A DNA stretch of 29,643 bases, from positions 1 to 29,643 of the IMG/VR virus record IMGVR_UViG_3300043568_002603. One strand, written 5' to 3'. Numbering within the stretch: the stretch's first letter is position 1; each line of letters opens with the position of its first letter. The DNA is from a virus. Position numbers and translations under genes: made by a program. The notes under the pieces are model-generated. The model was not told the origin of the DNA. It made no database searches and was given only the letters and a program-made list of their open reading frames with translations. This document shows positions 2,753-23,930 of this stretch, one piece after another.

Positions 2753-2782
2753 ACAGATACCATGGATAATAACCTAAGAGAG
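2753..2782 (+). repeat. Dispersed 30-bp repeat, copy 1 (intergenic)
   Basis: The element starts ACAGATACCATGGATAATAA and continues with a CCTAAGAGAG end. It fills most of the 37-bp gap between two tail genes and its right end supplies the GAGG Shine-Dalgarno for the ATG at 2790. The other two copies lie on the minus strand at 16775-16804 and 17057-17082, both inside a coding sequence. It has a CCATGG palindrome at its centre. Function is unknown; it could be a transcription signal or a small mobile sequence. Confidence 0.85.
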
Positions 2783-4967: not shown

Positions 4968-7148
4968 ATGGCGATTAGACAAGTTGGTGGTGTCCCAGTC
5001 TACGTAGTAGAAGTAGACGTTCCCAAAGTAACAGACTCACGAGGCAAGGGATACGGCCTTCTTGTCTCAGACCTCCGATGGAAGCTTTGGGAAGAAACAC
5101 AAAATTCTCAACTTCAGCAAATGAAGTTTGAACAGATGTCAAAGCAAGCTCAGCTCGATGTTCTTGAGCAAAAGCAAAGAGACATCTCTCGTGCAATTCG
5201 TGATGCAAGAGAGCTTCAGTCAAAAGTAAAGCTGGGTGGAACTTCTGCATCAGAAGCAGCACGTGTAAATCTTTCAATTGCGAAAGCAACACAAGGCAAA
5301 ACTGTTACAAGAACTTCTCCTGCACTTGACCCATTTACTGGTGAACTTATTCCAGGAGAAACAGTTCAGGTTGTTACCAGAACGCAGCCTGATGTTATCA
5401 AAGTTTCGCCTCTCGCTGCTCCATCAGTCGAAAGTGAACTTGCTTCTGATAAAACAAGAAGTGAAGCATTTGACAGACAAATGGATGAACTCGACAAGTA
5501 CATCTCTGATTTAGAAGCAGAACAGTCTCGAACTGGCGAAGAATTTGCAAAGTTTGCAGGAGGTCTTGCAGGTTCACAAGATATACTTTCAAGAACTCGT
5601 GAAGCTTTCCAATCACAAATTGGTGAGGGCGGTTTCGGTATTGGACGTCGTCCACTCCGTCAGCTTCCTCGATTTGATGAAGCCGGAGCTGCAGGCAGAA
5701 TTAACGAAACAATGGCAAGAGAAGAAGCTGCTCTTCTTCAAGAAGCGACCCGACGCAAATCACAAAATGCAGCAAAAAGAATTGCTGAATTTGAGGCAGC
5801 TGGCGGACTAAGGTCAGATGACCCAGAAGCTTTTGCAAAATTCGAAAGTGAACGTGACAATCCATCTCTTACACTTGACGAAGAACGCAAGGTAAGAGAC
5901 CTTGCAAGAGAAAGACTTGCTCAAGGAATGACTGCTGCTGGTGCGACACCAGCTTCAAAAGCCGGCTTTCTAATGAAGGATTTTCCTCCCGGTTCAGCTC
6001 TTCTGCCAAGAGAAGAAACTCGTTTTCCAACCGGAAGAATGCGTGATGACTTTGCTGTAGCAAGCGAGGCAGAAGCGCTTGATAGAGAAACAGTTGTTAG
6101 AGGAGAGCTTGACCGTGTTGGTCTTGGCAGTCCTGAGGCTGAAGGCTTACTTATGGAGCTTGAGGACATTCGCAGGACTAAACGAGCACCCCTAAATGCG
6201 CCAAGTTCAATTCCTGAAGCTCAGCGTCGCGCGATTGAGCTTGACGCTCTTGGTGTTAGTGCTGAGGAGGCTCAAACACGCGGATTTATGCCTCGTGATA
6301 GAGGGTTTAGTCTTCCTGTCGAAAGAATGGGAGAAGGCTTTGGTCAAACTACAACCTTTGGAACTCCAGGTGGTGGCCTTGATAGACTCAACGTAGCCAC
6401 TCGGAAGTCACCAGAAGCTCTCAGTCCTTCTCCAGTAAGAAGTCCAATGGAATCCCCTACACCTTTACCTGGTGCTACCACAAATCCTTCAGTGATTCCA
6501 GAGGAAGAGATTAGTTTCGGAGGTGGTGTCGTTCCTCCAATTCGGATGGAACCTACTCCTCCAGAAATTGTGCCAGATTTTGAAGAAGCCGAAGACCTTG
6601 TAAAAGTTGGTGGAAGAAAACCACTTCCTGGAGAAGGCGCTAAAGAACTCTATCAGTTCTACGCTCCTATCACTAAAGACTCTCGTGGTAAAGATGTCCT
6701 TCTTCCACTTTCTGACAAAGAAAAGAAGGAAGTCCACAAAATGTGGACAGATGAATCAGAAACAACCTCAGGTCTAAGCGAAGAAGAAGCACGTGCTTGG
6801 TACGAAGGTGCTGTTCAAAAAGTTCAGACACCACGCTCTGGTAAAACAATTCCTCAGAGGAGAGAGCTCTATGCAATGAAGATTGCAACAGAAGGAGCCA
6901 AACTTGCTGATAAACCAAAGCAGTTTGCCAGACTTGCAAAAACTACTTCACCTGATTCAGCTCCTGACTATGTGAAACTTGTCAATCAGATTTATGAACT
7001 AAACTCAACAAAGGGTGATAAATTCAAGCTAACGTTTGACGAAATTGCAAAATTCTACAAAGATGAACCAAAAGTAAGAGAAAGGGCTCATGCATACTTA
7101 GTAGCAAAGGACATGCTCGAAAGCGGTCTTACAAAGCCACAGGCATAA
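4968..7148 (+). CDS. Probable internal virion / ejection protein, 726 aa
   Basis: The ATG lies one base after the preceding stop. The N-terminal 60 residues include LLVSDLRWKLWEETQNSQLQ, followed by a long predicted coiled coil (residues about 50-100, QLDVLEQKQRDISRAIRDAR) and a second helical stretch near 170-200 (FDRQMDELDKYISDLEAEQS). The centre (about 440-540) is low-complexity and Pro/Ser-rich, suggesting a flexible linker. The C-terminal 150 residues are again helical and charged. No lysozyme or transglycosylase catalytic motif is visible. Its place between the 221-aa and 1808-aa genes fits an ejectosome-type set of internal proteins; this role is inferred from order and composition. 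Confidence 0.5.
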   Translation: MAIRQVGGVPVYVVEVDVPKVTDSRGKGYGLLVSDLRWKLWEETQNSQLQQMKFEQMSKQAQLDVLEQKQRDISRAIRDARELQSKVKLGGTSASEAARVNLSIAKATQGKTVTRTSPALDPFTGELIPGETVQVVTRTQPDVIKVSPLAAPSVESELASDKTRSEAFDRQMDELDKYISDLEAEQSRTGEEFAKFAGGLAGSQDILSRTREAFQSQIGEGGFGIGRRPLRQLPRFDEAGAAGRINETMAREEAALLQEATRRKSQNAAKRIAEFEAAGGLRSDDPEAFAKFESERDNPSLTLDEERKVRDLARERLAQGMTAAGATPASKAGFLMKDFPPGSALLPREETRFPTGRMRDDFAVASEAEALDRETVVRGELDRVGLGSPEAEGLLMELEDIRRTKRAPLNAPSSIPEAQRRAIELDALGVSAEEAQTRGFMPRDRGFSLPVERMGEGFGQTTTFGTPGGGLDRLNVATRKSPEALSPSPVRSPMESPTPLPGATTNPSVIPEEEISFGGGVVPPIRMEPTPPEIVPDFEEAEDLVKVGGRKPLPGEGAKELYQFYAPITKDSRGKDVLLPLSDKEKKEVHKMWTDESETTSGLSEEEARAWYEGAVQKVQTPRSGKTIPQRRELYAMKIATEGAKLADKPKQFARLAKTTSPDSAPDYVKLVNQIYELNSTKGDKFKLTFDEIAKFYKDEPKVRERAHAYLVAKDMLESGLTKPQA

Positions 7149-15581: not shown

Positions 15582-15788
15582 ATGACAACTTACAGAATGA
15601 CAATTACACCCGTAGGAAGTGGGACCCCTCATTGGGTTTTACGCTACAGTCCAGATTCAGTCGTGCCTTTCGTTACGATTGAAGGCACCGAGGAAATTTG
15701 GGTCTGGGACTTCGTCGGAGGAGCGCTGATGAAGGGTGGAGAAGTCCTGATGGAACATACGATTACAATCGGTATTTGGGAGGACTGA
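15582..15788 (+). CDS. Hypothetical 68-aa protein
   Basis: An upstream in-frame ATG at 15555 lies inside the preceding gene. I choose the ATG at 15582 because GAGG sits at 15572-15575, seven bases before it. The protein (MTTYRMTITPVGSGTPHWVL...) looks like a small all-beta fold with Trp-rich strands (EEIWVWDFVGG). No function is recognised. Its TGA overlaps the ATG of the following membrane protein (TGATG). A lysis-cassette or tail-accessory role is possible from position only. Confidence 0.5.
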   Translation: MTTYRMTITPVGSGTPHWVLRYSPDSVVPFVTIEGTEEIWVWDFVGGALMKGGEVLMEHTITIGIWED

Positions 15789-16066
15789 TGGAAACTGAAA
15801 CTCTAACACTCATCTCTAATGCAATAGCAGGACCAGCAAGTGGCGTAGCTGTCTCCCTAATTTGCTTAGGAGCTTTTCTTTGGTTTCTTGTGAAACATCT
15901 TCTCCCTCAGCAAGAAAGAAGTTTAGGAAAAATTTTAGAATCACACGCTGATGATAGAAAGTCTTTTGAAAAGAGCATCATAACTATGTCGAAGAGGATA
16001 GACCGTGTCGAAGATTCAATCGAAGAAGTTGCGAAAAACGTCTCATTTATCAGAGACAGAATGTGA
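15788..16066 (+). CDS. One-TM coiled-coil membrane protein, 92 aa; candidate holin or spanin-like protein
   Basis: The start is the ATG overlapping the previous TGA; longer readings start inside the upstream gene. Residues about 17-37 (VAVSLICLGAFLWFLVKHLL) are a clear transmembrane helix. A charged amphipathic helix follows (residues 42-90, including FEKSIITMSKRIDRVEDSIE). One N-terminal TM plus a coiled coil is a common layout for XhlA-like holin accessories and for inner-membrane spanins. It is at the end of the structural operon, where lysis genes are often found, but no endolysin is recognisable beside it, so the lysis role is a hypothesis. Confidence 0.55.
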   Translation: METETLTLISNAIAGPASGVAVSLICLGAFLWFLVKHLLPQQERSLGKILESHADDRKSFEKSIITMSKRIDRVEDSIEEVAKNVSFIRDRM

Positions 16067-16166
16067 GACTAAAGAGAAGTGGATTCAAAATCTGATTCAG
16101 CATTCTCACCTTGATAATGAGAATGCTCTTCAGTTGTGGGAGCTATTTCAGATTTTAGAATCGTAG
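16005..16166 (+). CDS. Possible small protein, 53 aa, GTG start
   Basis: This frame opens at a GTG inside the 3' end of the 92-aa membrane-protein gene and runs to TAG at 16164-16166, just before the convergent gene. AGAGGA lies about six bases upstream of the GTG. The peptide begins with a basic stretch (SKIQSKKLRKTSHLSE) and ends in a predicted helix (NENALQLWELFQILES). An embedded overlapping gene next to a one-TM protein recalls Rz/Rz1 layouts, but no lipobox is present. A 10-bp hairpin (16099-16127) lies inside the frame. It may simply be an open gap. Confidence 0.35.
   Translation: MSKIQSKKLRKTSHLSETECETKEKWIQNLIQHSHLDNENALQLWELFQILES
16099..16127. terminator. Hairpin between convergent genes (possible terminator)
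   Basis: A perfect 10-bp inverted repeat, AGCATTCTCA / TGAGAATGCT with a 9-base loop, lies between the rightward structural operon and the leftward 348-aa gene. No strong T-run follows on either strand, so intrinsic termination is uncertain; the position between convergent units is the main support. It also falls inside a possible 53-aa ORF. Confidence 0.4.
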
Positions 16167-16169
16167 AAA

Positions 16170-17216
16170 CTACCACTGTTCTACTTTTAGAAGATGTGGA
16201 TGAGCTGCTTTCTTTAATTCATCCACATCTGTCTTCCAGTAAATGACACCGTCATGCATAAGAAGAGCTTCATCTCCTACAGTTCTCATTCGTTCGATTA
16301 CAATTCCTTCAAGGTGTGTAAAGACGCGGTGGCAGTTTGTCTCTTCAAATTTCCAACCCATTGTTAGCAATCCAAATTTAAGACAATCTGATTGAACACC
16401 TTGACGTAGGATGTCAAACCAAGCATGACCACTTGAAGTAGGATATCCATTACGATAATCACTACAAAGCATTTGACGCATTGTCTTTATATCTTCCTCC
16501 ACTTCAATACAAAAATCATTCGCAATTTTTGAATGAAGGTCAGCTTTTAAAAGTGGGTTAAGAAGATATGCAAATGGAAGCGTGCAATCTTTTCCACCAA
16601 GTTCATGCCACCAAAGCGATTGAAAACAAGAAACAATATCCACGTTGATACATCCTTTGAAAAGAGTCTTTTTCTCTTCTGTTTTAAGAGACTGAAGGTA
16701 ATGATAGCGACGATGAGGAGAACGAACTGTTGAATGATAAAATGGACGACACCATTTTTCCCAAACCGGCTTCTCTCTTAGGTTATTATCCATGGTATCT
16801 GTTATTCTTGTTATGTTTGGGAAGTCCTCGGTTGCAAAGAAGAACTTTCTATGTAAGTCTAAAGGAATAGAGACTCCTTTGCAGAAGGAACCAAAGAAAC
16901 TATGAGCTGCTTCGGTCCACTCTCCGTCTCTCATTCTACCGCTTAGTGAATTCCAGCTGCTGTTGGTAAAACGGATAAATGCATTGAAGTAAGGCTCATA
17001 GACTTTTTTGTTCGTGAGACCAAGCTTTTGCTGAAGAATAGAAGTGCATGGGACCCTTAGGTTATTATCCATGGTATCTGTCTTGGTTTCCCTGTAGATG
17101 TGCAGGAAGTAGTATGCTGTTGTAAGGTCTCTTGGAAGACGAGACATGCTCAAGACCTTTTTAATCTCGGTCTTGAGCATGTCTGACGTTGAAATGTTGG
17201 CAACTGGGAATGACAT
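16170..17216 (-). CDS. Candidate replication protein, 348 aa, with weak palm-polymerase-like motifs
   Basis: This is the only large leftward gene, with its own promoter and a structured leader. The ATG at 17216 has GGAG five bases upstream. Residues 190-201 (INVDIVSCFQSL) resemble polymerase motif A (D193). Residues 318-327 (LLMHDGVIYW) resemble motif C of family A/T7-type enzymes (H321-D322), and 242-257 (DIKTMRQMLCSDYRNG) could be a motif-B equivalent. At 348 aa it is far smaller than a normal DNA polymerase. Residues 46-54 and 139-147 are identical (TDTMDNNLR), encoded by two copies of a dispersed DNA repeat. No other replication gene is visible, so I infer an initiator, primer-synthesising or polymerase-like role. 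It could be a plasmid-type Rep protein of another fold. Confidence 0.4.
   Translation of the reverse strand: MSFPVANISTSDMLKTEIKKVLSMSRLPRDLTTAYYFLHIYRETKTDTMDNNLRVPCTSILQQKLGLTNKKVYEPYFNAFIRFTNSSWNSLSGRMRDGEWTEAAHSFFGSFCKGVSIPLDLHRKFFFATEDFPNITRITDTMDNNLREKPVWEKWCRPFYHSTVRSPHRRYHYLQSLKTEEKKTLFKGCINVDIVSCFQSLWWHELGGKDCTLPFAYLLNPLLKADLHSKIANDFCIEVEEDIKTMRQMLCSDYRNGYPTSSGHAWFDILRQGVQSDCLKFGLLTMGWKFEETNCHRVFTHLEGIVIERMRTVGDEALLMHDGVIYWKTDVDELKKAAHPHLLKVEQW
16775..16804 (-). repeat. Dispersed 30-bp repeat, copy 2 (inside the 348-aa gene)
   Basis: On the minus strand this is a base-for-base match to 2753-2782 over 30 bp, beginning ACAGATACCATGGATAATAA. It encodes residues TDTMDNNLRE (139-148) in frame. 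Flanking bases differ from the other copies, so this is not a larger duplication. Confidence 0.85.
17057..17082 (-). repeat. Dispersed 26-bp repeat, copy 3 (inside the 348-aa gene)
   Basis: On the minus strand it matches copy 1 over 26 bp from ACAGATACCATGGATAATAA to CCTAAG. Two further bases upstream (AG) are also shared with copy 1. It encodes TDTMDNNLR (46-54), in frame and 279 bp upstream of copy 2 in the same gene. Confidence 0.85.
17142..17184 (-). promoter_or_regulatory. Perfect 16-bp inverted repeat in codons 11-25 of the 348-aa gene
   Basis: AGACATGCTCAAGACC (17142-17157) and its exact reverse complement (17169-17184) flank an 11-base loop. In mRNA this forms a very stable hairpin just after the start codon; in DNA it could form a cruciform. 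It encodes SDMLKTEIKKVLSMS. No T-run follows, so it is not a classical terminator. Possible roles are an RNase III site, a translation brake or a replication-related structure. Confidence 0.8.
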
Positions 17217-17275
17217 GAAATCTCCGGGAGGGAAAGTGGTTAAAGCTCCCGGAAATCACCACTTTCCCAGTTGCC
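17199..17275 (-). promoter_or_regulatory. Structured leader with competing hairpins controlling the 348-aa gene
   Basis: On the minus-strand transcript three pairings are possible. Pairing A joins 17275-17264 to 17210-17199 (12 bp, GGCAACTGGGAA with codons 3-6), closing a loop that contains the ribosome binding site and ATG. Pairing B joins 17268-17258 to 17240-17230 (11 bp, GGGAAAGTGGT). Pairing C joins 17253-17246 to 17230-17223 (8 bp, TCCGGGAG) and buries GGA of the Shine-Dalgarno. A and C are compatible and hide the start region. B shares bases with both and leaves the Shine-Dalgarno free. This is the arrangement of a two-state translational switch. The ligand or trans factor, if any, is unknown. 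Confidence 0.65.
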
Positions 17276-17285
17276 TTACTACTAT

Positions 17286-17314
17286 ATATTACGCTCAATT
17301 GTGATTTGTATCAA
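17286..17314 (-). promoter_or_regulatory. Sigma70-like promoter for the 348-aa gene
   Basis: On the minus strand, TTGATA (17314-17309) is followed by a 17-base spacer and TAATAT (17291-17286). Transcription would start near 17279, giving a leader of about 60 nt that begins just before the first arm of the competing hairpins. Spacing and both hexamers are close to consensus. Confidence 0.65.
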
Positions 17315-17332
17315 TATCAGCATTTTTGTTGC

Positions 17333-17369
17333 AAAAAAAAGCTCCACCCTGTTCATTCCAGAGGGAGCT
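17333..17369 (-). terminator. Leftward intrinsic terminator-like hairpin
   Basis: On the minus strand, AGCTCC (17369-17364) pairs with GGAGCT (17345-17340), with partial pairing further in, followed by a run of eight T (17340-17333). It sits just upstream of the promoter of the 348-aa gene and would shield that promoter from leftward read-through. Confidence 0.55.
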
Positions 17370-17405
17370 CATTTCTCTTCAACGCATTACAGGATGACAG
17401 TGACA

Positions 17406-17450
17406 GTGTGAGGCATTCACACATCTAAACCAGACCACCCGATTTAGATG
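17406..17450. promoter_or_regulatory. Two adjoining palindromes (possible operator)
   Basis: GTGTGA ggcat TCACAC (17406-17422) abuts CATCTAAA / TTTAGATG with a 13-base loop (17422-17450). Both are perfect. They lie upstream of the nuclease gene and could bind a dimeric regulator, possibly the HTH protein encoded at 18762. The first resembles a CRP site but has a 5-base instead of a 6-base spacer. Confidence 0.4.
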
Positions 17451-17491
17451 AAGAGATATTATTTTGAAGTTTTTGTTTGTATAAGTAAATG

Positions 17492-17525
17492 AGCGCTTTC
17501 TTCGAGATATTTATCTTTAAGGAGC
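17492..17525 (+). promoter_or_regulatory. Repeated upstream element, copy 1
   Basis: This 34-bp stretch, starting GAGCGCTTTCTTCGAGATAT and ending AAGGAG, matches 18397-18430 at 25 of 34 positions without gaps. Both copies precede a rightward gene in the accessory block and end at the Shine-Dalgarno. It contains an AGATA/TATCT palindrome. It may be a phage-specific early promoter or a shared mRNA leader. Confidence 0.5.
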
Positions 17526-17534
17526 GCTATACAA

Positions 17535-18086
17535 ATGAATCGTCAAGACTATTACGACCTCGGCAATGACACTGAAAGATGGTGGCGTGAACATGTTAAG
17601 AGCATCATGCCACACCTCAGACACACCCCACGTTGCAGAGGATACGACTTCAAAGGAGAATTTGAAGGCTCTACAGTCTACATCGATGTGAAGTTTTGCC
17701 GTTCACTCTATCGTCAGCAAGGATGGATGGAAGTGAAAACATGGGGGAAACTGACAGGAATCATCGAGACTGCAAAAGAGCATTACAACAATCCTCGTGT
17801 AGACGTGATGATGGTCGTACTTCATTGCGGAAAGTTTCATCTCGTCGACGTAAAAGAAATCCTTCGTTCTTGGCAGAAGGGAGAGCTTGAGCTTCTGAAG
17901 GGGACATCAACTGACGACAACGGAGAGAGGACCGAAAACAGATACTTCAGACTGAACGGTTTCGATGACCCACGCTTTCAGATTATCGAGGGAGCGATGA
18001 AGCCCGAACTGTGGAAGCCTACGACCTCGATTGGAAAGAAGGTCGATATCGGACTCTGGATGAAGGGCGAATGGAGCGAAGACTAA
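17535..18086 (+). CDS. PD-(D/E)XK-like nuclease, 183 aa
   Basis: The ATG follows GGAG in a shared upstream element. Residues 36-54 read GYDFKGEFEGSTVYIDVKF, giving D38 and D51-x-K53. An acidic residue, a beta-hairpin and then D/E-x-K on a strand is the pattern of PD-(D/E)XK nucleases such as phage recombination exonucleases and resolvases. A helix with conserved-looking charged residues follows (EVKTWGKLTGIIETAKEHYN). A later strand (VDVMMVVLHCGKFHLVDVKE) suits the core sheet. A role in DNA recombination, end processing or host DNA degradation is inferred. Without alignment the subfamily is open. The gene faces the leftward small membrane protein across a short hairpin. Confidence 0.5.
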   Translation: MNRQDYYDLGNDTERWWREHVKSIMPHLRHTPRCRGYDFKGEFEGSTVYIDVKFCRSLYRQQGWMEVKTWGKLTGIIETAKEHYNNPRVDVMMVVLHCGKFHLVDVKEILRSWQKGELELLKGTSTDDNGERTENRYFRLNGFDDPRFQIIEGAMKPELWKPTTSIGKKVDIGLWMKGEWSED

Positions 18087-18089
18087 TCG

Positions 18090-18112
18090 CATCATTTACG
18101 AAACAAATGATG
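18090..18112. terminator. Hairpin at convergent gene ends (possible bidirectional terminator)
   Basis: CATCATTT acgaaac AAATGATG is a perfect 8-bp stem with a 7-base loop. It starts 4 bp after the nuclease stop codon and covers the last codons of the convergent membrane-protein gene. T-runs after it are weak, so efficiency is uncertain. Confidence 0.4.
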
Positions 18113-18283
18113 AAGCCCACTCATTGCAAAAAGAACTGCGAGTGGAGTAACACAAGGACCTAAAGCCTCGTAAGTAGCCCACAGACCTAATCCGATAAGG
18201 ACAAGCCAGACAGCATTTTCAAGAATAAAACCAAAGACGCCAAACACCAAGAAAAACAAAAACTCGCCAATCTTGTCAAGCAT
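18092..18283 (-). CDS. Small membrane protein, 63 aa
   Basis: Three consecutive possible starts exist (TTG 18289, ATG 18286, ATG 18283). I choose 18283 because AAGGAG (18295-18290) is then six bases away. The protein is strongly hydrophobic, with predicted TM segments at about residues 7-36 (FLFFLVFGVFGFILENAVWL and LVLIGLGLWA) and a third hydrophobic stretch at about 42-58 (VTPLAVLFAMSG), ending HHLFRK. It is transcribed leftward between two rightward genes. It could be a holin, a superinfection-exclusion protein or another membrane effector; nothing in the sequence decides. Confidence 0.55.
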   Translation of the reverse strand: MLDKIGEFLFFLVFGVFGFILENAVWLVLIGLGLWATYEALGPCVTPLAVLFAMSGLHHLFRK

Positions 18284-18396
18284 CATCAACTCCTTGGTTG
18301 ATTATACCGCCACACATGGACTTAATAATTCGGTGAGAAGGAAAAAGGAAGGAAACGGGGTCAAGTTTTTTTGAACTATTTTCCGTTCTCTAAAAA

Positions 18397-18430
18397 CGAG
18401 CACTTTCTCGAAGATACTTAGTCTTATGGA
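18397..18430 (+). promoter_or_regulatory. Repeated upstream element, copy 2
   Basis: Matches 17492-17525 at 25 of 34 aligned positions, starting GAGCACTTTCTCGAAGATAC and ending at the GGAG that serves the 14-codon ORF at 18438. The conserved blocks are GAGC-CTTTCT, AGATA-TTA and CTTA-GGAG. Confidence 0.5.
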
Positions 18431-18437
18431 GGCTCTC

Positions 18438-18482
18438 ATGGGCGACTACTTCTACCACACAACTCAATGGAGCGGACGATGA
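18438..18482 (+). CDS. Very short upstream ORF, 14 aa, possibly a leader peptide
   Basis: ATG at 18438 has a good GGAGG six bases upstream and encodes MGDYFYHTTQWSGR. Its TGA overlaps the ATG at 18479 (ATGA), so ribosomes finishing here could restart on the Cys-rich gene. The strong ribosome binding site belongs to this ORF and not to the next start. Its role could be translational coupling alone. The high aromatic content is notable but no regulatory pairing is visible. Confidence 0.4.
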   Translation: MGDYFYHTTQWSGR

Positions 18483-18772
18483 CAGGAATCTTTAGGACTT
18501 GTAAAACCTGCGGGGCTGTACACCCACTCTGGCATTTCAACCATCTCTACGTGCCTCGCACTCCTGAAGAGAAAGGGTGGCTCTGTAAGCAGTGTCCAAA
18601 GTGCTTCTCTGAAGGTGGTGCACTTGGTGAGACAGATTTTATTGAGGCGAAGATAGCCGAAAAGAAAGAAGCGATGGGGACACTCAAAGAAGAAATCCAT
18701 GAGCTTACATCGATTCTCAGACACATCAACCGCAAAACAATCGCGATTGGAGACAACTCAAATGAACCCTAA
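18479..18772 (+). CDS. Cys-rich, probably zinc-binding protein, 97 aa
   Basis: An in-frame ATG at 18467 gives 101 aa, but the ATG at 18479 overlaps the stop of the upstream 14-codon ORF and is the better coupled start. Cysteines fall at C8-x2-C11 (FRTCKTCGAVH) and C36-x2-C39-x2-C42 (LCKQCPKCF), consistent with a zinc-ribbon or knuckle. A coiled-coil helix follows (residues 57-88, IAEKKEAMGTLKEEIHELTS). Similar small zinc proteins in phages often bind nucleic acid or modulate host enzymes. No named family is recognised. It overlaps the HTH gene by 11 bp. Confidence 0.55.
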   Translation: MTGIFRTCKTCGAVHPLWHFNHLYVPRTPEEKGWLCKQCPKCFSEGGALGETDFIEAKIAEKKEAMGTLKEEIHELTSILRHINRKTIAIGDNSNEP

Positions 18773-19085
18773 GAGAAATAAAAGAGCATACGTCACCGAT
18801 ATCCCAGGCAAGCAAATCAATGAGATAGCCGATGAGATGAACGCATCGGTAGGATGGGTTACGAAAGTCATCTCTTCTTTTCTCACAACAACGGCATCTC
18901 AGGTCCTTAGAACTTATGACCAGCCACTTACGAACGACCGGGTAAATCATTTAGCATTCAATCCAGCCTTTTACGAGATTATCTCAGGGGTACTCAGAGA
19001 CACTCCGGTTAAAGAGCCAATAGATTCCATTACAATCTTAAATGGAAGTCACTCAGTCAAATCTCGTGAATCGGAGGGATACTGA
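18762..19085 (+). CDS. Helix-turn-helix DNA-binding protein, 107 aa
   Basis: I choose the ATG at 18762, with a GGAG about ten bases upstream, over an in-frame ATG at 18699 that would lie deep inside the previous gene. Residues 16-40 (GKQINEIADEMNASVGWVTK) show the spacing of an HTH: helix with INEIADEM, a turn at NAS, and recognition helix VGWVTKVISSF. The N-terminus is basic (NPKRNKR). It is probably a transcriptional regulator or an origin/terminase-site binding protein. Its targets could be the palindromes at 17406-17450 or the iterons at 19600-20214, both of which are nearby; this link is inferred. Confidence 0.5.
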   Translation: MNPKRNKRAYVTDIPGKQINEIADEMNASVGWVTKVISSFLTTTASQVLRTYDQPLTNDRVNHLAFNPAFYEIISGVLRDTPVKEPIDSITILNGSHSVKSRESEGY

Positions 19086-19087
19086 AA

Positions 19088-19414
19088 ATGTCAGGCGTAA
19101 GATTCAAAGAGAGCGACTATAACAAAATAAATTATAGGTGGCCTAAGAAGGGGGAAGTAATCTCGTGGACATCTACGCAAGGGGGAAAGCGTGTCAGTCT
19201 TGTTGTAGATGACTACCCAGACCTAAAGACACCAGATAATGAACCACTCAGATTCCAAAGTTCTCTACCATCGGCAAGTTATTACCTGTACTCTACTACA
19301 ACACCGTCTGAAGCACTATATGTAATGACAGGTCACGAGCTTCACTATCTTTGGTCTCGTCCCTCTGACTTAGAGATAATCGGTCATTATGCAGCACCTC
19401 CTGTAGACGGCTAA
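19088..19414 (+). CDS. Hypothetical protein, 108 aa
   Basis: Its ATG lies just after the HTH stop, with GGAGGG nine bases upstream. The protein (MSGVRFKESDYNKINYRWPK...) is hydrophilic, Tyr/Ser/Pro-rich, without TM segments or a recognised motif; strand-like segments such as KRVSLVVDDY and EALYVMTGHELHYL suggest a small mixed fold. It is the last gene before the 966-bp gene-free region. Confidence 0.5.
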   Translation: MSGVRFKESDYNKINYRWPKKGEVISWTSTQGGKRVSLVVDDYPDLKTPDNEPLRFQSSLPSASYYLYSTTTPSEALYVMTGHELHYLWSRPSDLEIIGHYAAPPVDG

Positions 19415-19575
19415 AAAAGTTCTCTACATACTGTTCCCCAATTCCAATCCCTCAGTCTCACAGTCTACAGTAAAATGTATGGCAGTGGTCACTGGGGGAT
19501 AGTTTTTATCTCAACGGTGTCTCTGGATGTCTCGGTAGACCTGGCGCCCGCCGCTAAATGTAAACAAGAAAATAG

Positions 19576-19600
19576 TGATTTAGTGTGACATGTGATTTAG
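19576..19600 (+). repeat. Direct repeat TGATTTAG, two copies 17 bp apart
   Basis: TGATTTAG occurs at 19576-19583 and 19593-19600. The second copy also forms part of the inverted repeat ATTTAGCGG with 19551-19559. It lies at the left border of the iteron region. Confidence 0.5.
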
Positions 19601-19634
19601 CGGGTCACTGTTACTCGTTGATTGTGTATAGAGG

Positions 19635-19726
19635 CTCGTGTTCTCGGAGAAACTAGTACTCAAAAAATAACAGTGACTATTCATTTACTCGTGTTACTCG
19701 ATGTGTTTGGTGACTCGTGTTACTGC
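19635..19726 (+). repeat. CTCGTGTT-type iterons, left cluster
   Basis: Three copies occur in one orientation: CTCGTGTTCTCG (19635-19646), CTCGTGTTACTCG (19688-19700) and CTCGTGTTACTGC (19714-19726). The last is present exactly, in inverse orientation, at 20052-20064. A related CACTGTTACTCG lies just upstream at 19606-19617. Confidence 0.65.
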
Positions 19727-19982
19727 TTGTATTTGGAGAACTTAATGCCGAGAACAGGTTCGGTCGCCGTCATCATGTACATCGCTCTCACCCATAGGCG
19801 CAGAAAGTAGTCACAATCCCCTCAGTCACAAAAAAATTGGGTCACTGGTCACTGCGTTCAATCATGACCTCGCCATGCCGCGTTCGACGTGTGCGGCCGG
19901 CAATCAATGATTTATCGCGGGACCAGCCCTTAGAGAAAGCCGTCACATCGTGAGACATGTATTTTTTTTAGCACCCACTAAG

Positions 19983-20028
19983 TTCCTGTTACTGCTAAAG
20001 TTCCTGTTACTCATGTGTTCCTGTTCTC
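19983..20028 (+). repeat. Tandem TTCCTGTTACT iterons, three copies
   Basis: TTCCTGTTACT at 19983-19993 and 20001-20011, and TTCCTGTTCTC at 20018-20028, are spaced 18 and 17 bp apart. The preceding base pairs are also similar (AAG or TG). The spacing is under two helical turns and resembles plasmid iterons in size (17-22 bp). Confidence 0.65.
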
Positions 20029-20051
20029 CGTTAAATAGATATTTGTATTTA

Positions 20052-20064
20052 GCAGTAACACGAG
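20052..20064 (-). repeat. Inverted copy of the 13-bp iteron
   Basis: GCAGTAACACGAG is the exact reverse complement of CTCGTGTTACTGC at 19714-19726, 326 bp away. A further inverse partial copy, AGTAACACGC, lies at 20205-20214. Confidence 0.6.
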
Positions 20065-20380
20065 TATTTAAGGAGGCGGAGCGCGCTGTGTTCTTTGTAA
20101 CAGTCAAATTTACCGCCGTCCTCCAATAGTCACTGTTACGGCTTTAGTTTCTATGTTACTGTTACTTTTTTAATTTCGGTAGGCCTTCACTCTTAAGTTC
20201 TGGTAGTAACACGCTTGGTCCCCCGAATATCTCACCGACTTTTTAGGAATCTGAGGGAGACCTCTCTACAGGCGACAAAAGCCCTCACAGGAAAAAGGAA
20301 GGCTCAAAAATTTCCCGCGCTCGTAGAGAAATTAGAGTCGGGGTGGGAACAATGTGTATATTTATTTGCATGGAGGGAAC

Positions 20381-20680
20381 ATGCCACGCAGAGAAACAGT
20401 TGGTATTGCCGCAAGAAGAGCTTACCGTAACCGTGACGTTCACCAGTTTGTCTGGTCAATGCTAAAGCTTACTGAGGAAGAAATTGAAAAGGGTGTGCCA
20501 GGTAAGTCAAGAACATTCTCAGGCCGAGACATTGTGGGCTTCGTAAATACGCTCGTCAATCTTGAGAGGGTGCGAAAAGAAATTGCTCCAGAAGGCGGAG
20601 ACGGTGATGAAGATTACGGTAGCTGGGGAAAACCTCCTCCCCTCCAAGTTGTTGATGATGAAGAAGAAGAGGATGAATAA
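20381..20680 (+). CDS. Candidate small terminase subunit, 99 aa
   Basis: The ATG at 20381 has GGAGG five bases upstream; an in-frame ATG 27 bp earlier lacks one. The N-terminus is basic (MPRRETVGIAARRAYRNRDV), the centre helical, and the C-terminus strongly acidic (EGGDGDEDYGSW... ending in a Glu/Asp run). It lies immediately before the large terminase gene and overlaps it (TAATG). Position, size and a basic-to-acidic layout fit a small terminase that recognises packaging sites in the adjoining iteron region. No HTH is obvious, so the call rests mainly on context. Confidence 0.6.
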   Translation: MPRRETVGIAARRAYRNRDVHQFVWSMLKLTEEEIEKGVPGKSRTFSGRDIVGFVNTLVNLERVRKEIAPEGGDGDEDYGSWGKPPPLQVVDDEEEEDE

Positions 20681-22263
20681 TGGCTGGTCCCCAAAGTGGT
20701 CGGTCGGGCGGTGTCCCTCTACGTAAGTTACTCAGCGGGCCATGGAGAGACACGCTTCTCGACCCTATCAAGTTTATTTCCAAACTTGGAATTGTAGATA
20801 AGAAGGGACACAGAGTCCCTCTTCTTCCAAATGATGAGCAGATAGAAATTGTGAAGGCTCTCGAAGGCGAAGGCGATGTCCTTGTTCTCAAAGGTCGACA
20901 GATTGGCTCGTCTACGATTATCGTTGCTTGGCTCTTCCAGAAGGCATTCGTCTCTCTAGAGCCCCTTACCCTCGCAACAATGAGCCACAAAGCCTCCTCA
21001 GCTAGACACCTTCTTCAAATCATAAAGAGGATGAATGACTCTCTTCCTCCTGCTCTTCAGCGTCCAATTTCTGTTGACAACGGTAACGAACTTCGATTTG
21101 CTGATACAGGTGCAGGTGTCATTGCTGTTTCTGCTGAAGGTAAAGGTGGTCTTCGTTCATTCTCTTGTAACGCTCTCCACATTTCAGAATTTGCATTTGC
21201 TGACAACAGTGAAGAATTAAAAGCAACAGCAATTGCAGCACTGAACGGTGGTAAGATGATAATGGAATCAACTGCCAACCGTTGGGGTGATGGTCTTCAT
21301 AAAGAATGGATGAGGGCTGAACGTGGAGAAGCTGATTGGAATCGACTCTTCTTCCCTTGGTGGGGTCACAAGGCCTACAAGATGTCGTTACCACTTGAAG
21401 AAGACGGCTCACCGATTCCCCTCAGTTGGCGTCCTGATGAAGAAGAACTACGTGACAAGTACGAACTTTCAGAAGAACAGCTTCTTTGGCGACGTTCAAC
21501 AATCGGAAAATTAGGCATAGAGAAATTTAGAAGAGAATATCCTGCTTCAGCCGAAGAAGCCTATCTCGTAACAGGAGCTACATACTTCAAGGAAGAAGAC
21601 TTTAAAGATGTTGATGTCCTGACAATTGACGACCCATCCTGGTCAGTCTTTGAAGAGCCAAAAGAGAATGATGCATATGCGATTGGCGTTGACGTTGCAG
21701 CTGGTGTAGGTCGAGACTACTCAGTAATTTTCGTCATCTCTAAAATGACAGGTTCACCAGTTGCAGTATGGAGAAGTAACACTGTTGAGCCGACAAACTT
21801 GTCTGAGGTTGTTATTGACATTGCAACAGACTACAAGAACGCTCTTGTCTTAGTAGAAGCAAACAACTTTGGTGGCATTGTTCTTAACCAGATGCGCCAT
21901 GAGAGCTGGGGCAAATTTTGGAAAGGTCCTGACGGAAAGGATTGGGTGACATCTGCTAAATCAAAAGCTCTCGCATTCGAAAAGTTAAAATCTGTGATAC
22001 AATCTGGTGAGATGCGCCATATTGATAAATTAACGTATGAAGAACTGCGTTCAATTACAGTTTCTGAACGTGGTACTATTGAACTTCCAAGAGAAGCAGG
22101 AAGCCACTCAGACTCTGCTGTAGCCCTTGCACTTGCTTCAGTCTGTTTAGACAAAGTCAGATTGCCAGACATACATATTTTGCCAGATTGGATTAAACAG
22201 AGGCGTGTCCAGAAAATAGTTCTAAACCACGGCGCGGGTTGCGGCCCAACTAGGAGATATTAG
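20680..22263 (+). CDS. terL: Large terminase subunit (DNA packaging ATPase/nuclease)
   Basis: This 527-aa protein has the full terminase order. The Walker A variant is GRQIGSST (72-79), the Walker B region NALHISEFAF (164-173, catalytic E170 likely), and the coupling motif MIMESTAN (193-200). The nuclease half carries GVDVAAGVGRDYS (D338, D346), VEANNFG (E393) and HSDSAVALAL (D478), the acidic triad of RNase H-like terminase nucleases. It pumps phage DNA into the prohead through the portal and cuts the concatemer. Length is normal for the family. Its ATG overlaps the small subunit stop, and its TAG overlaps the GTG of the portal gene. Confidence 0.93.
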   Translation: MAGPQSGRSGGVPLRKLLSGPWRDTLLDPIKFISKLGIVDKKGHRVPLLPNDEQIEIVKALEGEGDVLVLKGRQIGSSTIIVAWLFQKAFVSLEPLTLATMSHKASSARHLLQIIKRMNDSLPPALQRPISVDNGNELRFADTGAGVIAVSAEGKGGLRSFSCNALHISEFAFADNSEELKATAIAALNGGKMIMESTANRWGDGLHKEWMRAERGEADWNRLFFPWWGHKAYKMSLPLEEDGSPIPLSWRPDEEELRDKYELSEEQLLWRRSTIGKLGIEKFRREYPASAEEAYLVTGATYFKEEDFKDVDVLTIDDPSWSVFEEPKENDAYAIGVDVAAGVGRDYSVIFVISKMTGSPVAVWRSNTVEPTNLSEVVIDIATDYKNALVLVEANNFGGIVLNQMRHESWGKFWKGPDGKDWVTSAKSKALAFEKLKSVIQSGEMRHIDKLTYEELRSITVSERGTIELPREAGSHSDSAVALALASVCLDKVRLPDIHILPDWIKQRRVQKIVLNHGAGCGPTRRY

Positions 22264-23930
22264 TGAACAAAGAAGATACCATCAAGCTCATCAGAATCAT
22301 CAAAAACGAACATGATGACTATTGGCAGCAAAAATCCTCAGAGATGAGGAAGTATCGTGACGTTTATGAAACGAAATTTTGGCGCACACTTCAAGCTGAT
22401 GACACGATGATTCGTGTTGAAACTCCAGATGCTTACACCTACATCGAATCCTACATTGCAAGTCTTTTCACAAGGGCTCCTGCAGTTGTGGTCGGTAAGG
22501 ATATTGCTGCAACTGGAACTGGTGTCGCAAATCCTGAAGCTGCTCAGGCAATTGCAAACAGGTGGCTCTACCAGAAAAGAGAGCAGATTGAGAATGCATC
22601 TCGACTTGCGCTAATTTACGACTTCTCAGCACTAAAGCTAATCCCTCAGAAGACTGAAAAGATGCTTGACAAGTCTGAAGTCGTTGCAGTTCCGCCTTGG
22701 GAAGTAATTGTAGACCGTGATGCAGGCTCTCCTATTCAGCAACGCTACATTGGTCACACATATTACCTGAATGTGACTGAAGCAAAAGAACGCTATGGAG
22801 CCAAGAAGTTCACAGCAATTCCAAAGATGGACTACTTTGACGAATACGGTCAGGATGGAAGCAAGCCTCGTTACAATGGTCAGGCACGTCGTTCAATCGA
22901 TGACCTACCTGATTCATACCTCTATATCGAAGTTGTAGAGCTTTACGACCTTGTTAGGGACCGTGTTTACTTCTGGTCTCCTCAGTGGCAAAATGGTGAA
23001 TCTCTTCTAGAGGATGCTGAAATCCCTCTCAGAACATACGACAATCAGCCACTGCCTCCAATCAAAACTCTCTACTACAGCAGAATCCCAGACTCTCCTA
23101 TGGAAGGCATTTCTGCTATGGGTCGTGTTTACGACCAGTTCTACGAAAAGAACATCCTCAGAACCTACTGGGCAAACTCTGTTCGTCGTGACTCTCGTCA
23201 GTACATCTACAAAGAGGGCTCAATGGATGAAGAAGCTCTCGCAAAGATTACAGCTGGTGTTGATGGTGCTATGATTGCAGTAGATAATGACTCACTTGAT
23301 GGCGTCATTAGAGAAGTTGGGGTGACCCCAATCTCATCAAACTTTGACCGTTACCAAGCTTACATCGAGTCTGATATCACAAGAGGTTCAGTTATTCAAG
23401 CATTCGCTGGTCAACCCACTAAAGCTTCAGCAACTGAAATTACTGCTATTGCATCATACGCAGCTTCTGAAATGGGCAAACTTGCAAGAGAGCGTGACAA
23501 CCTTATCGAAGGTATTACAGAATGCTACTTGCGCTTTGTTCACCTACTTTCGCAAGAAGGTGACCGTGCAGTTGTTGAAGCTGGTGGTCGAGCAGTGGTC
23601 ATTACACCTACAGACATTGATTCGCAATTCAAAATTGCAGCTCTTGACCAAGGCTCACAGCCACTTGCAGATGCACTGAAGAAGCAGAATCTTGTTGCTC
23701 TACTTCCAACTCTTCAGTCTCTTGGTGTTCCAAGTAACTTGCTTCTAGATGAAATCGTCAGAGCTTACGAGCTTCCAAAAACATTTACTGATGCAGCTGC
23801 ACAAGCAATCGCAGCTGCAAGGGCTCCAACAGGTGCTGTAAAGGCTCCAACCGGCGCTGCTGCAAGTAGATTAGAAGCTGGTCCGACCGAACAAATGAAT
23901 TCAGCTGCACAAATCGTCAATAAACTTTAA
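22263..23930 (+). CDS. Portal protein
   Basis: This 555-aa protein starts on GTG, overlapping the terL stop (TAGTG). It is helical and charged, with a typical N-terminus (KLIRIIKNEHDDYWQQKSSE) followed by YIESYIASLFTRAPAVVVGK and a central region including DSPMEGISAMGRVYDQFYEK that fits the clip/stem/wing architecture of podovirus portals. The C-terminal 60 residues are Ala/Pro-rich (barrel or crown). It forms the dodecameric DNA gateway at one vertex and contacts terminase and the adaptor. The call rests on position after terL, length and these features. Confidence 0.85.
   Translation: MNKEDTIKLIRIIKNEHDDYWQQKSSEMRKYRDVYETKFWRTLQADDTMIRVETPDAYTYIESYIASLFTRAPAVVVGKDIAATGTGVANPEAAQAIANRWLYQKREQIENASRLALIYDFSALKLIPQKTEKMLDKSEVVAVPPWEVIVDRDAGSPIQQRYIGHTYYLNVTEAKERYGAKKFTAIPKMDYFDEYGQDGSKPRYNGQARRSIDDLPDSYLYIEVVELYDLVRDRVYFWSPQWQNGESLLEDAEIPLRTYDNQPLPPIKTLYYSRIPDSPMEGISAMGRVYDQFYEKNILRTYWANSVRRDSRQYIYKEGSMDEEALAKITAGVDGAMIAVDNDSLDGVIREVGVTPISSNFDRYQAYIESDITRGSVIQAFAGQPTKASATEITAIASYAASEMGKLARERDNLIEGITECYLRFVHLLSQEGDRAVVEAGGRAVVITPTDIDSQFKIAALDQGSQPLADALKKQNLVALLPTLQSLGVPSNLLLDEIVRAYELPKTFTDAAAQAIAAARAPTGAVKAPTGAAASRLEAGPTEQMNSAAQIVNKL

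Follow-up and report, generated by a model that had tools for sequence, protein, structure and literature searches.

Alternative RNA folds limit the initiator in the IncB/I/K repZ-type plasmid leaders, which make use of a pseudoknot, a leader peptide and an antisense RNA. Few natural cases (MS2, hok, AapA) are known in which timed folding of nascent RNA limits translation. In the leader of the MS2 maturation gene, folding is delayed: the stable fold hides the ribosome site, and a small local 5' hairpin forms first and postpones it, giving a short translation time (PMC6582335, citing Poot 1997 and van Meerten 2001). In the type I toxin mRNAs hok and AapA3, metastable and mutually exclusive hairpins form successively around the Shine-Dalgarno sequence during transcription and the full-length fold is inert, with covariation as support; these metastable hairpins block translation, a long-distance 5'-3' fold locks the RNA until 3' processing, and an antisense RNA belongs to the system (PMC6733600, PMC6582335). 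The gene 43 operator of T4/RB69 likewise controls a phage replication protein through a hairpin and the ribosome site, as a single hairpin bound by the polymerase itself with no competing fold (PMC3014915).

The window analysed here, an entire IMG/VR virus record of 29,643 bases, is the genome of a small uncultured phage. It codes for a terminase, a weak SU10-type portal match and a major head protein, and its exact terminal repeat (127 bases, at both ends) makes a circular or circularly permuted genome of about 29.5 kb probable. A leftward gene oriented against the structural genes is preceded by the leader whose features are collected in Table 1. About 80 related loci were collected by terminase searches, and bacterial genomes were searched with the terminase as the sole query. 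One contig (L002) is 99.98% identical to the window across 17162-22786, which argues against an assembly error in helices A, B and C. A close relative, L006, is about 90% identical in DNA around the leftward gene, the body of which diverges abruptly immediately past arm A, with a protein identity of just 26-29%; the distant homolog L036 encodes a more similar protein (about 40% identity), and its leader helices consist mostly of other letters. Between the window and L006 a stretch (15805-17199) comprising most of the leftward gene and a small rightward gene (15788-16066) has been replaced, one breakpoint being the exact end of arm A.

Table 1. Features of the leftward gene, its leader and neighbouring elements in the window
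Feature	Position	Strand	Remarks
Sigma-70-like promoter TTGATA-17-TAATAT	17286..17314	-	Start expected at about 17280; TAATATATAGTA kept in L006 and divergent L036
Helix A, 5' arm	17264..17275	-	Repeat search, folding, covariance model; first 7 nt unpaired when B is formed, a possible toehold
Helix A, 3' arm	17199..17210	-	In codons 3-6; 12-bp helix
Helix B (putative transient hairpin), 5' arm	17258..17268	-	Overlaps 5' arm of A
Helix B, 3' arm	17230..17240	-	11-bp helix; tip GTGGT/ACCAC and loop end CTTT kept in L036
Helix C, 5' arm	17246..17253	-	Within loop of B
Helix C, 3' arm	17223..17230	-	Over GGA of Shine-Dalgarno
Shine-Dalgarno GGAG	17222..17225	-	From sequence
Hairpin D, 5' arm	17169..17184	-	Begins at +33 of reading frame
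Hairpin D, 3' arm	17142..17157	-	16-bp helix; D region beats synonymous-codon shuffles in 3 of 3 homologs
Controlled gene (putative)	16170..17216	-	348 aa, ATG start at 17216; no family match; DIVSCF and MHDG polymerase-like by eye only
26-nt repeat, copy 1	17056..17081	-	In gene, codons 46-54
26-nt repeat, copy 2	16777..16802	-	In gene, codons 139-147; 279 bp from copy 1
26-nt repeat, intergenic copy	2753..2778	+	Within clean 38-nt insertion relative to L006 genome (G001)
Possible separate structured small RNA	17335..17456	-	Upstream; ends in intrinsic-terminator-like hairpin (stem 17341-17370, T run 17333-17340)

An earlier note on this DNA, made from the letters alone, had described four perfect inverted repeats here, and a repeat search recovered all of them in place (A, 12 bp; B, 11 bp; C, 8 bp, extendable to 11 at 91%; D, 16 bp). 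The 141 nt of leader and first codons (17142-17282, minus strand) fold at -70.6 kcal/mol, compared with -32.9 +/- 3.8 kcal/mol for dinucleotide shuffles (z about -10; none of 200 as good). Overlapping A and B together with D occurred in none of 20,000 shuffles of the leader of either the window or L036, and among 1338 ORF starts from related loci (the window's own start left out) just those of L036 and L006 have the overlapping A/B layout. In the predicted fold A and C combine into a single rod burying the Shine-Dalgarno sequence, the unpaired probability of which is near 0 in that state, as the note had proposed, and D stands apart as a separate hairpin.

The note's idea of a two-state switch stood in so far as conserved competing folds do lie on the leader, and fell as regards a reversible switch between nearly equal states. 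In the window the A+C fold has an energy of -42.2 kcal/mol and B alone one of -18.3 kcal/mol; with A+C ahead by 24 (window) and 13 kcal/mol, an equilibrium switch is ruled out. Exclusion of A by B is incomplete, as B can form together with 7 bp remaining of A, at -30.0 kcal/mol. An H-type pseudoknot of B and C, which would recall the repZ-type leaders, is impossible because the two 3' arms share one base and leave no spacer; neither an antisense RNA nor a translated leader peptide of the kind used there was found at this locus. The leader matched no Rfam family at the gathering score, neither a ligand riboswitch nor any other curated RNA (sub-threshold matches were animal microRNA hairpins only).

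The L036 leader keeps the window's order of A, B, C and D, at nearly the same spacing. Helix A (AGAAACAGAGC/GCTCTGTTTCT) spans 77 nt in both phages and its 3' arm again falls within the first codons (GCTCTGTTTCT being in L036 codons 2-5), while helix C (CCTGTTTGT/ACAAACAAGG, with one bulge) again lies over the Shine-Dalgarno, here AAGG of the ribosome site. Besides A and C, helix B is kept too (GAGCCGTGGT/ACCACGGCTC), with its GTGGT/ACCAC tip, its loop of 17 nt and its offset of 7 nt from A the same in the window and L036; hairpin D is AAGATATCAAGGCTC/GAGCCTTGATATCTT. Between these two leaders 17 of the 29 pairs of A, B and C have a change in both partners, and no pair has a change in one partner alone (both changed: A, 5 of 11; B, 4 of 10; C, 8 of 8), as counted by structure comparison, a MAFFT alignment of the three leaders having been left out because a misplaced gap breaks the pairing. 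The compensatory change is seen in this one divergent comparison, the A-C leader of L006 being nearly identical to that of the window: over the 77-nt span of A the single difference is a C to T change in arm C, by which a G-C pair becomes G-U.

A covariance model of A and C built from the window and L006 and run with filters off found the L036 leader (L036:6803-6879) at full length on the sense strand with an E value of 0.0024, its best match within the L036 locus. The structure model was run with filters on and off and a sequence-only model with default filters; with default filters, in a search of 46 sources, neither model reported the L036 leader. The outcomes that the note had named as fatal, relatives lacking the arms or free of compensatory change, did not materialize, the arms being present in both L006 and L036. 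There is good support for a leader RNA whose two competing folds are positioned to affect translation, because layout and pairing are kept in a divergent relative with changed sequence. Selection on the fold itself is suggested by L036, which retains the folding plan although its letters are largely different.

The pairing changes noted in helices C and D of L006 are G-U on the sense strand (the other strand would read A-C), which points to RNA. They speak against a second interpretation, which we consider quite unlikely: that the repeats are replication-origin or recombination sites, or single-strand hairpins, at the head of the gene, and that RNA folding is a by-product. This would suit the abrupt divergence of the window and L006 gene bodies at the end of arm A (17199), as if exchange had occurred there, and the presence of a phage-specific 26-nt repeat within the same gene, but the places of the arms relative to the Shine-Dalgarno and start codon are kept though most letters have changed, it is not evident what use double-stranded DNA would have for arms that exclude each other, and the structure model scores best on the sense strand in L036.

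Hairpin D is also kept in place, starting at +33, +38 and +32 in the three homologs. Its sequences differ among them, that of L006 enclosing an extra hairpin and having one G-U pair. The most stable 120-nt window of each homolog's gene begins at +16 or +31, in the region of D, and against synonymous-codon shuffles the D region has z scores of -3.5 to -6.0. The near-fixed distance of D lies beyond the footprint of an initiating ribosome and suggests a role in translation. The L002 contig, near-identical otherwise, begins at window position 17162, so that its end falls within the loop of D, and the L035 contig likewise begins within the homologous gene.

When folds of the growing RNA were predicted, B was present at lengths of about 55-60 nt and A+C at 80 nt and beyond, in the window and L036 alike, and in both phages the 5' arm of A has 7 nt free beside B. 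The early place of B in these folds, together with the 7-nt toehold, favours one-way timing, and the best reading, to which we give somewhat better than even confidence, is that of a cis-acting leader with one-way kinetic control, which would limit translation of the leftward gene by ordered co-transcriptional folding. Hairpin B would form once about 52 nt had been transcribed and would keep the 5' arm of C in its loop and part of the 5' arm of A in its stem, so that the Shine-Dalgarno would come out free. As codons 3-6 emerged, the 3' arm of A would bind the 7-nt toehold on its 5' arm and displace B, after which C would close on the Shine-Dalgarno. With this order of closing, ribosomes would load on the nascent RNA only, and the finished mRNA would be locked and silent. 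Hairpin D, 32-38 nt past the start codon, would probably slow or space the first ribosome or insulate the leader fold. Against one-way timing, B and the C-containing folds of the window are already tied at 65-75 nt, and a weak local hairpin pairs part of the Shine-Dalgarno in the window's B state. The predicted barriers from B to A+C are small (6.0 and 8.2 kcal/mol), so B may be too short-lived to matter.

With the MS2 maturation leader the locus shares two traits: the stable fold pairs the Shine-Dalgarno with an upstream complement in the window, L006 and L036, and the competing local 5' hairpin, B, comes first in the predicted growing-RNA folds and is conserved in L036. It differs in that the leader here is that of a DNA-phage mRNA, the putative transient helix is a long one with perfect pairing, the strand that closes the fold is part of the first codons and hairpin D follows at a near-fixed distance; there is no sequence relation. 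The earlier statement that no example had been described is thus correct only in part, as the layout follows the principle of delayed folding already described in MS2. Successive, mutually exclusive hairpins and an inert full-length fold, both predicted here, are shared with hok and AapA3, whereas none of the three distinguishing features of those mRNAs (translation-blocking metastable hairpins, a long-distance lock released by 3' processing, an antisense RNA) is seen here. A type I toxin-antitoxin mRNA was ruled out, the product being a protein of 348 aa and a consensus scan of the leader region having found no antisense promoter. Read as above, the locus is a kinetically controlled translation leader in a new form, which joins no named family.

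Apart from the -10 region, no sequence is retained more clearly between the divergent leaders than the tip of B with its loop end, which is what a protein site would lead one to expect. This favours another explanation, modelled on T4 DNA polymerase gp43 at the gene 43 leader: translation would be repressed or activated when the structured leader is bound, either by the encoded protein or by a host factor, the alternative folds being the bound and unbound states and the site perhaps the B tip (GTGGT...CTTT-ACCAC). A hairpin joined to a ribosome site is also the kind of operator known from gene 43 (PMC3014915). An autogenous operator of this sort nevertheless appears unlikely, as no RNA-binding domain is recognisable in the protein, which has no known relatives, and A+C already hides the start site without a protein.

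The candidate small RNA upstream (Table 1) has a closing stem CTCTTCA/TGAAGAG and two hairpins, and its terminator-like stem stays paired through changes in L006. Should a small RNA, possibly this one, pair with the leader, it could open or lock it in trans, which we judge very unlikely. In favour, this stretch is folded, has a terminator-like hairpin of its own, sits immediately upstream on the strand of the leader and is almost unchanged in L006, and the loop of C exposes ACCACTTTCC in the A+C state; however, the complementarity noticed is just about 5 bases, adjacent coding DNA is about as similar between the window and L006 as 17335-17456 is, and L036 has the same leader with no visible counterpart of the upstream RNA or terminator.

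The promoter proposed in the note is present as described (Table 1), but the region shows no excess of promoter-like matches over shuffles (2 found, 3.7 expected), and the lack of an evident -35 box in the L036 leader counts against the ordered-folding explanation favoured here. A gene start downstream of the structure, which the note had offered as a refutation, was ruled out, as the alignment of the homologous proteins opens at the same start region and backs the annotated one.

The gene had been called replication-like, and this is a guess from the sequence. The motifs DIV[SG]CF and MHDG[VFI]I resemble by eye motifs A and C of a right-hand polymerase, and the family matches nothing in the libraries searched. 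Pfam and PHROGs gave no family above chance (a Drt5 reverse transcriptase at E 0.054 only), no significant match was found in NCBIfam, in PDB sequences or by tblastn in phages and plasmids, and hhalign comparisons with T7 RNA and DNA polymerase were not significant, although the best T7 RNA polymerase segment covers the HD motif (probability 0.2%). Two AlphaFold models (pLDDT 37 and 41) were too poor for a fold search. Identification as a polymerase or replication initiator was accordingly set aside, since neither profiles nor families nor structure pointed to a polymerase or Rep.

Three copies of ACAGATACCATGGATAATAACCTAAG, two of them in frame in the leftward gene, are the sole exact repeats of at least 17 nt in the window genome, the terminal repeat aside. 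The L036 contig has four copies of a different sequence of 22-26 nt as its sole such repeats (at 7063, 7348 and 14297 on the plus strand and 1478 on the minus strand), two at the corresponding in-frame places in the gene and two intergenic. The sites of the window and L036 agree at 15 of 26 bases, an agreement reached by 85 of 200,000 shuffles. The L006 genome lacks both the repeats and this version of the gene, and in place of the site at 2753 it has a clean 38-nt gap. The 26-nt repeat did not pair with the leader clearly better than shuffles did. A natural guess is that the repeat is a putative recognition site of the encoded protein (an origin, promoter or similar).

Taken further, and with rather little confidence, the locus could be a new self-timing module for an early gene of this small-phage group, in which a one-way lock (B, then A+C) and a hairpin D that meters the first ribosome are joined to a polymerase-like protein, the gene carries two of the phage-specific 26-nt sites that recur elsewhere, and leader, protein and sites co-evolve as the parts of a replication or transcription system not recognised so far. 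A compact DNA-phage version of timed folding with compensatory change of whole helices would, if true, be a clean natural test of whether the transient helix is itself selected, and it may reveal how the dose of an early regulator is set in small phages that have no recognisable polymerase.

A search of the viral contigs for the pattern of the B tip returned the known homologs plus one unrelated conserved hairpin, GTGGT...ACGCTAGCTTTCACCAC, read on the opposite strand, at the start of a small gene for MNSKEFSLKIEAMVKEK-like proteins in other phage contigs (L123, L129, L137, L143, L144, L162, L179, L180 and L182); in the L144 version the stem is changed and pairing is kept. In L036 three further perfect inverted repeats are clustered at 5807-5971, at and inside the 3' end of a small leftward zinc-finger-like gene.
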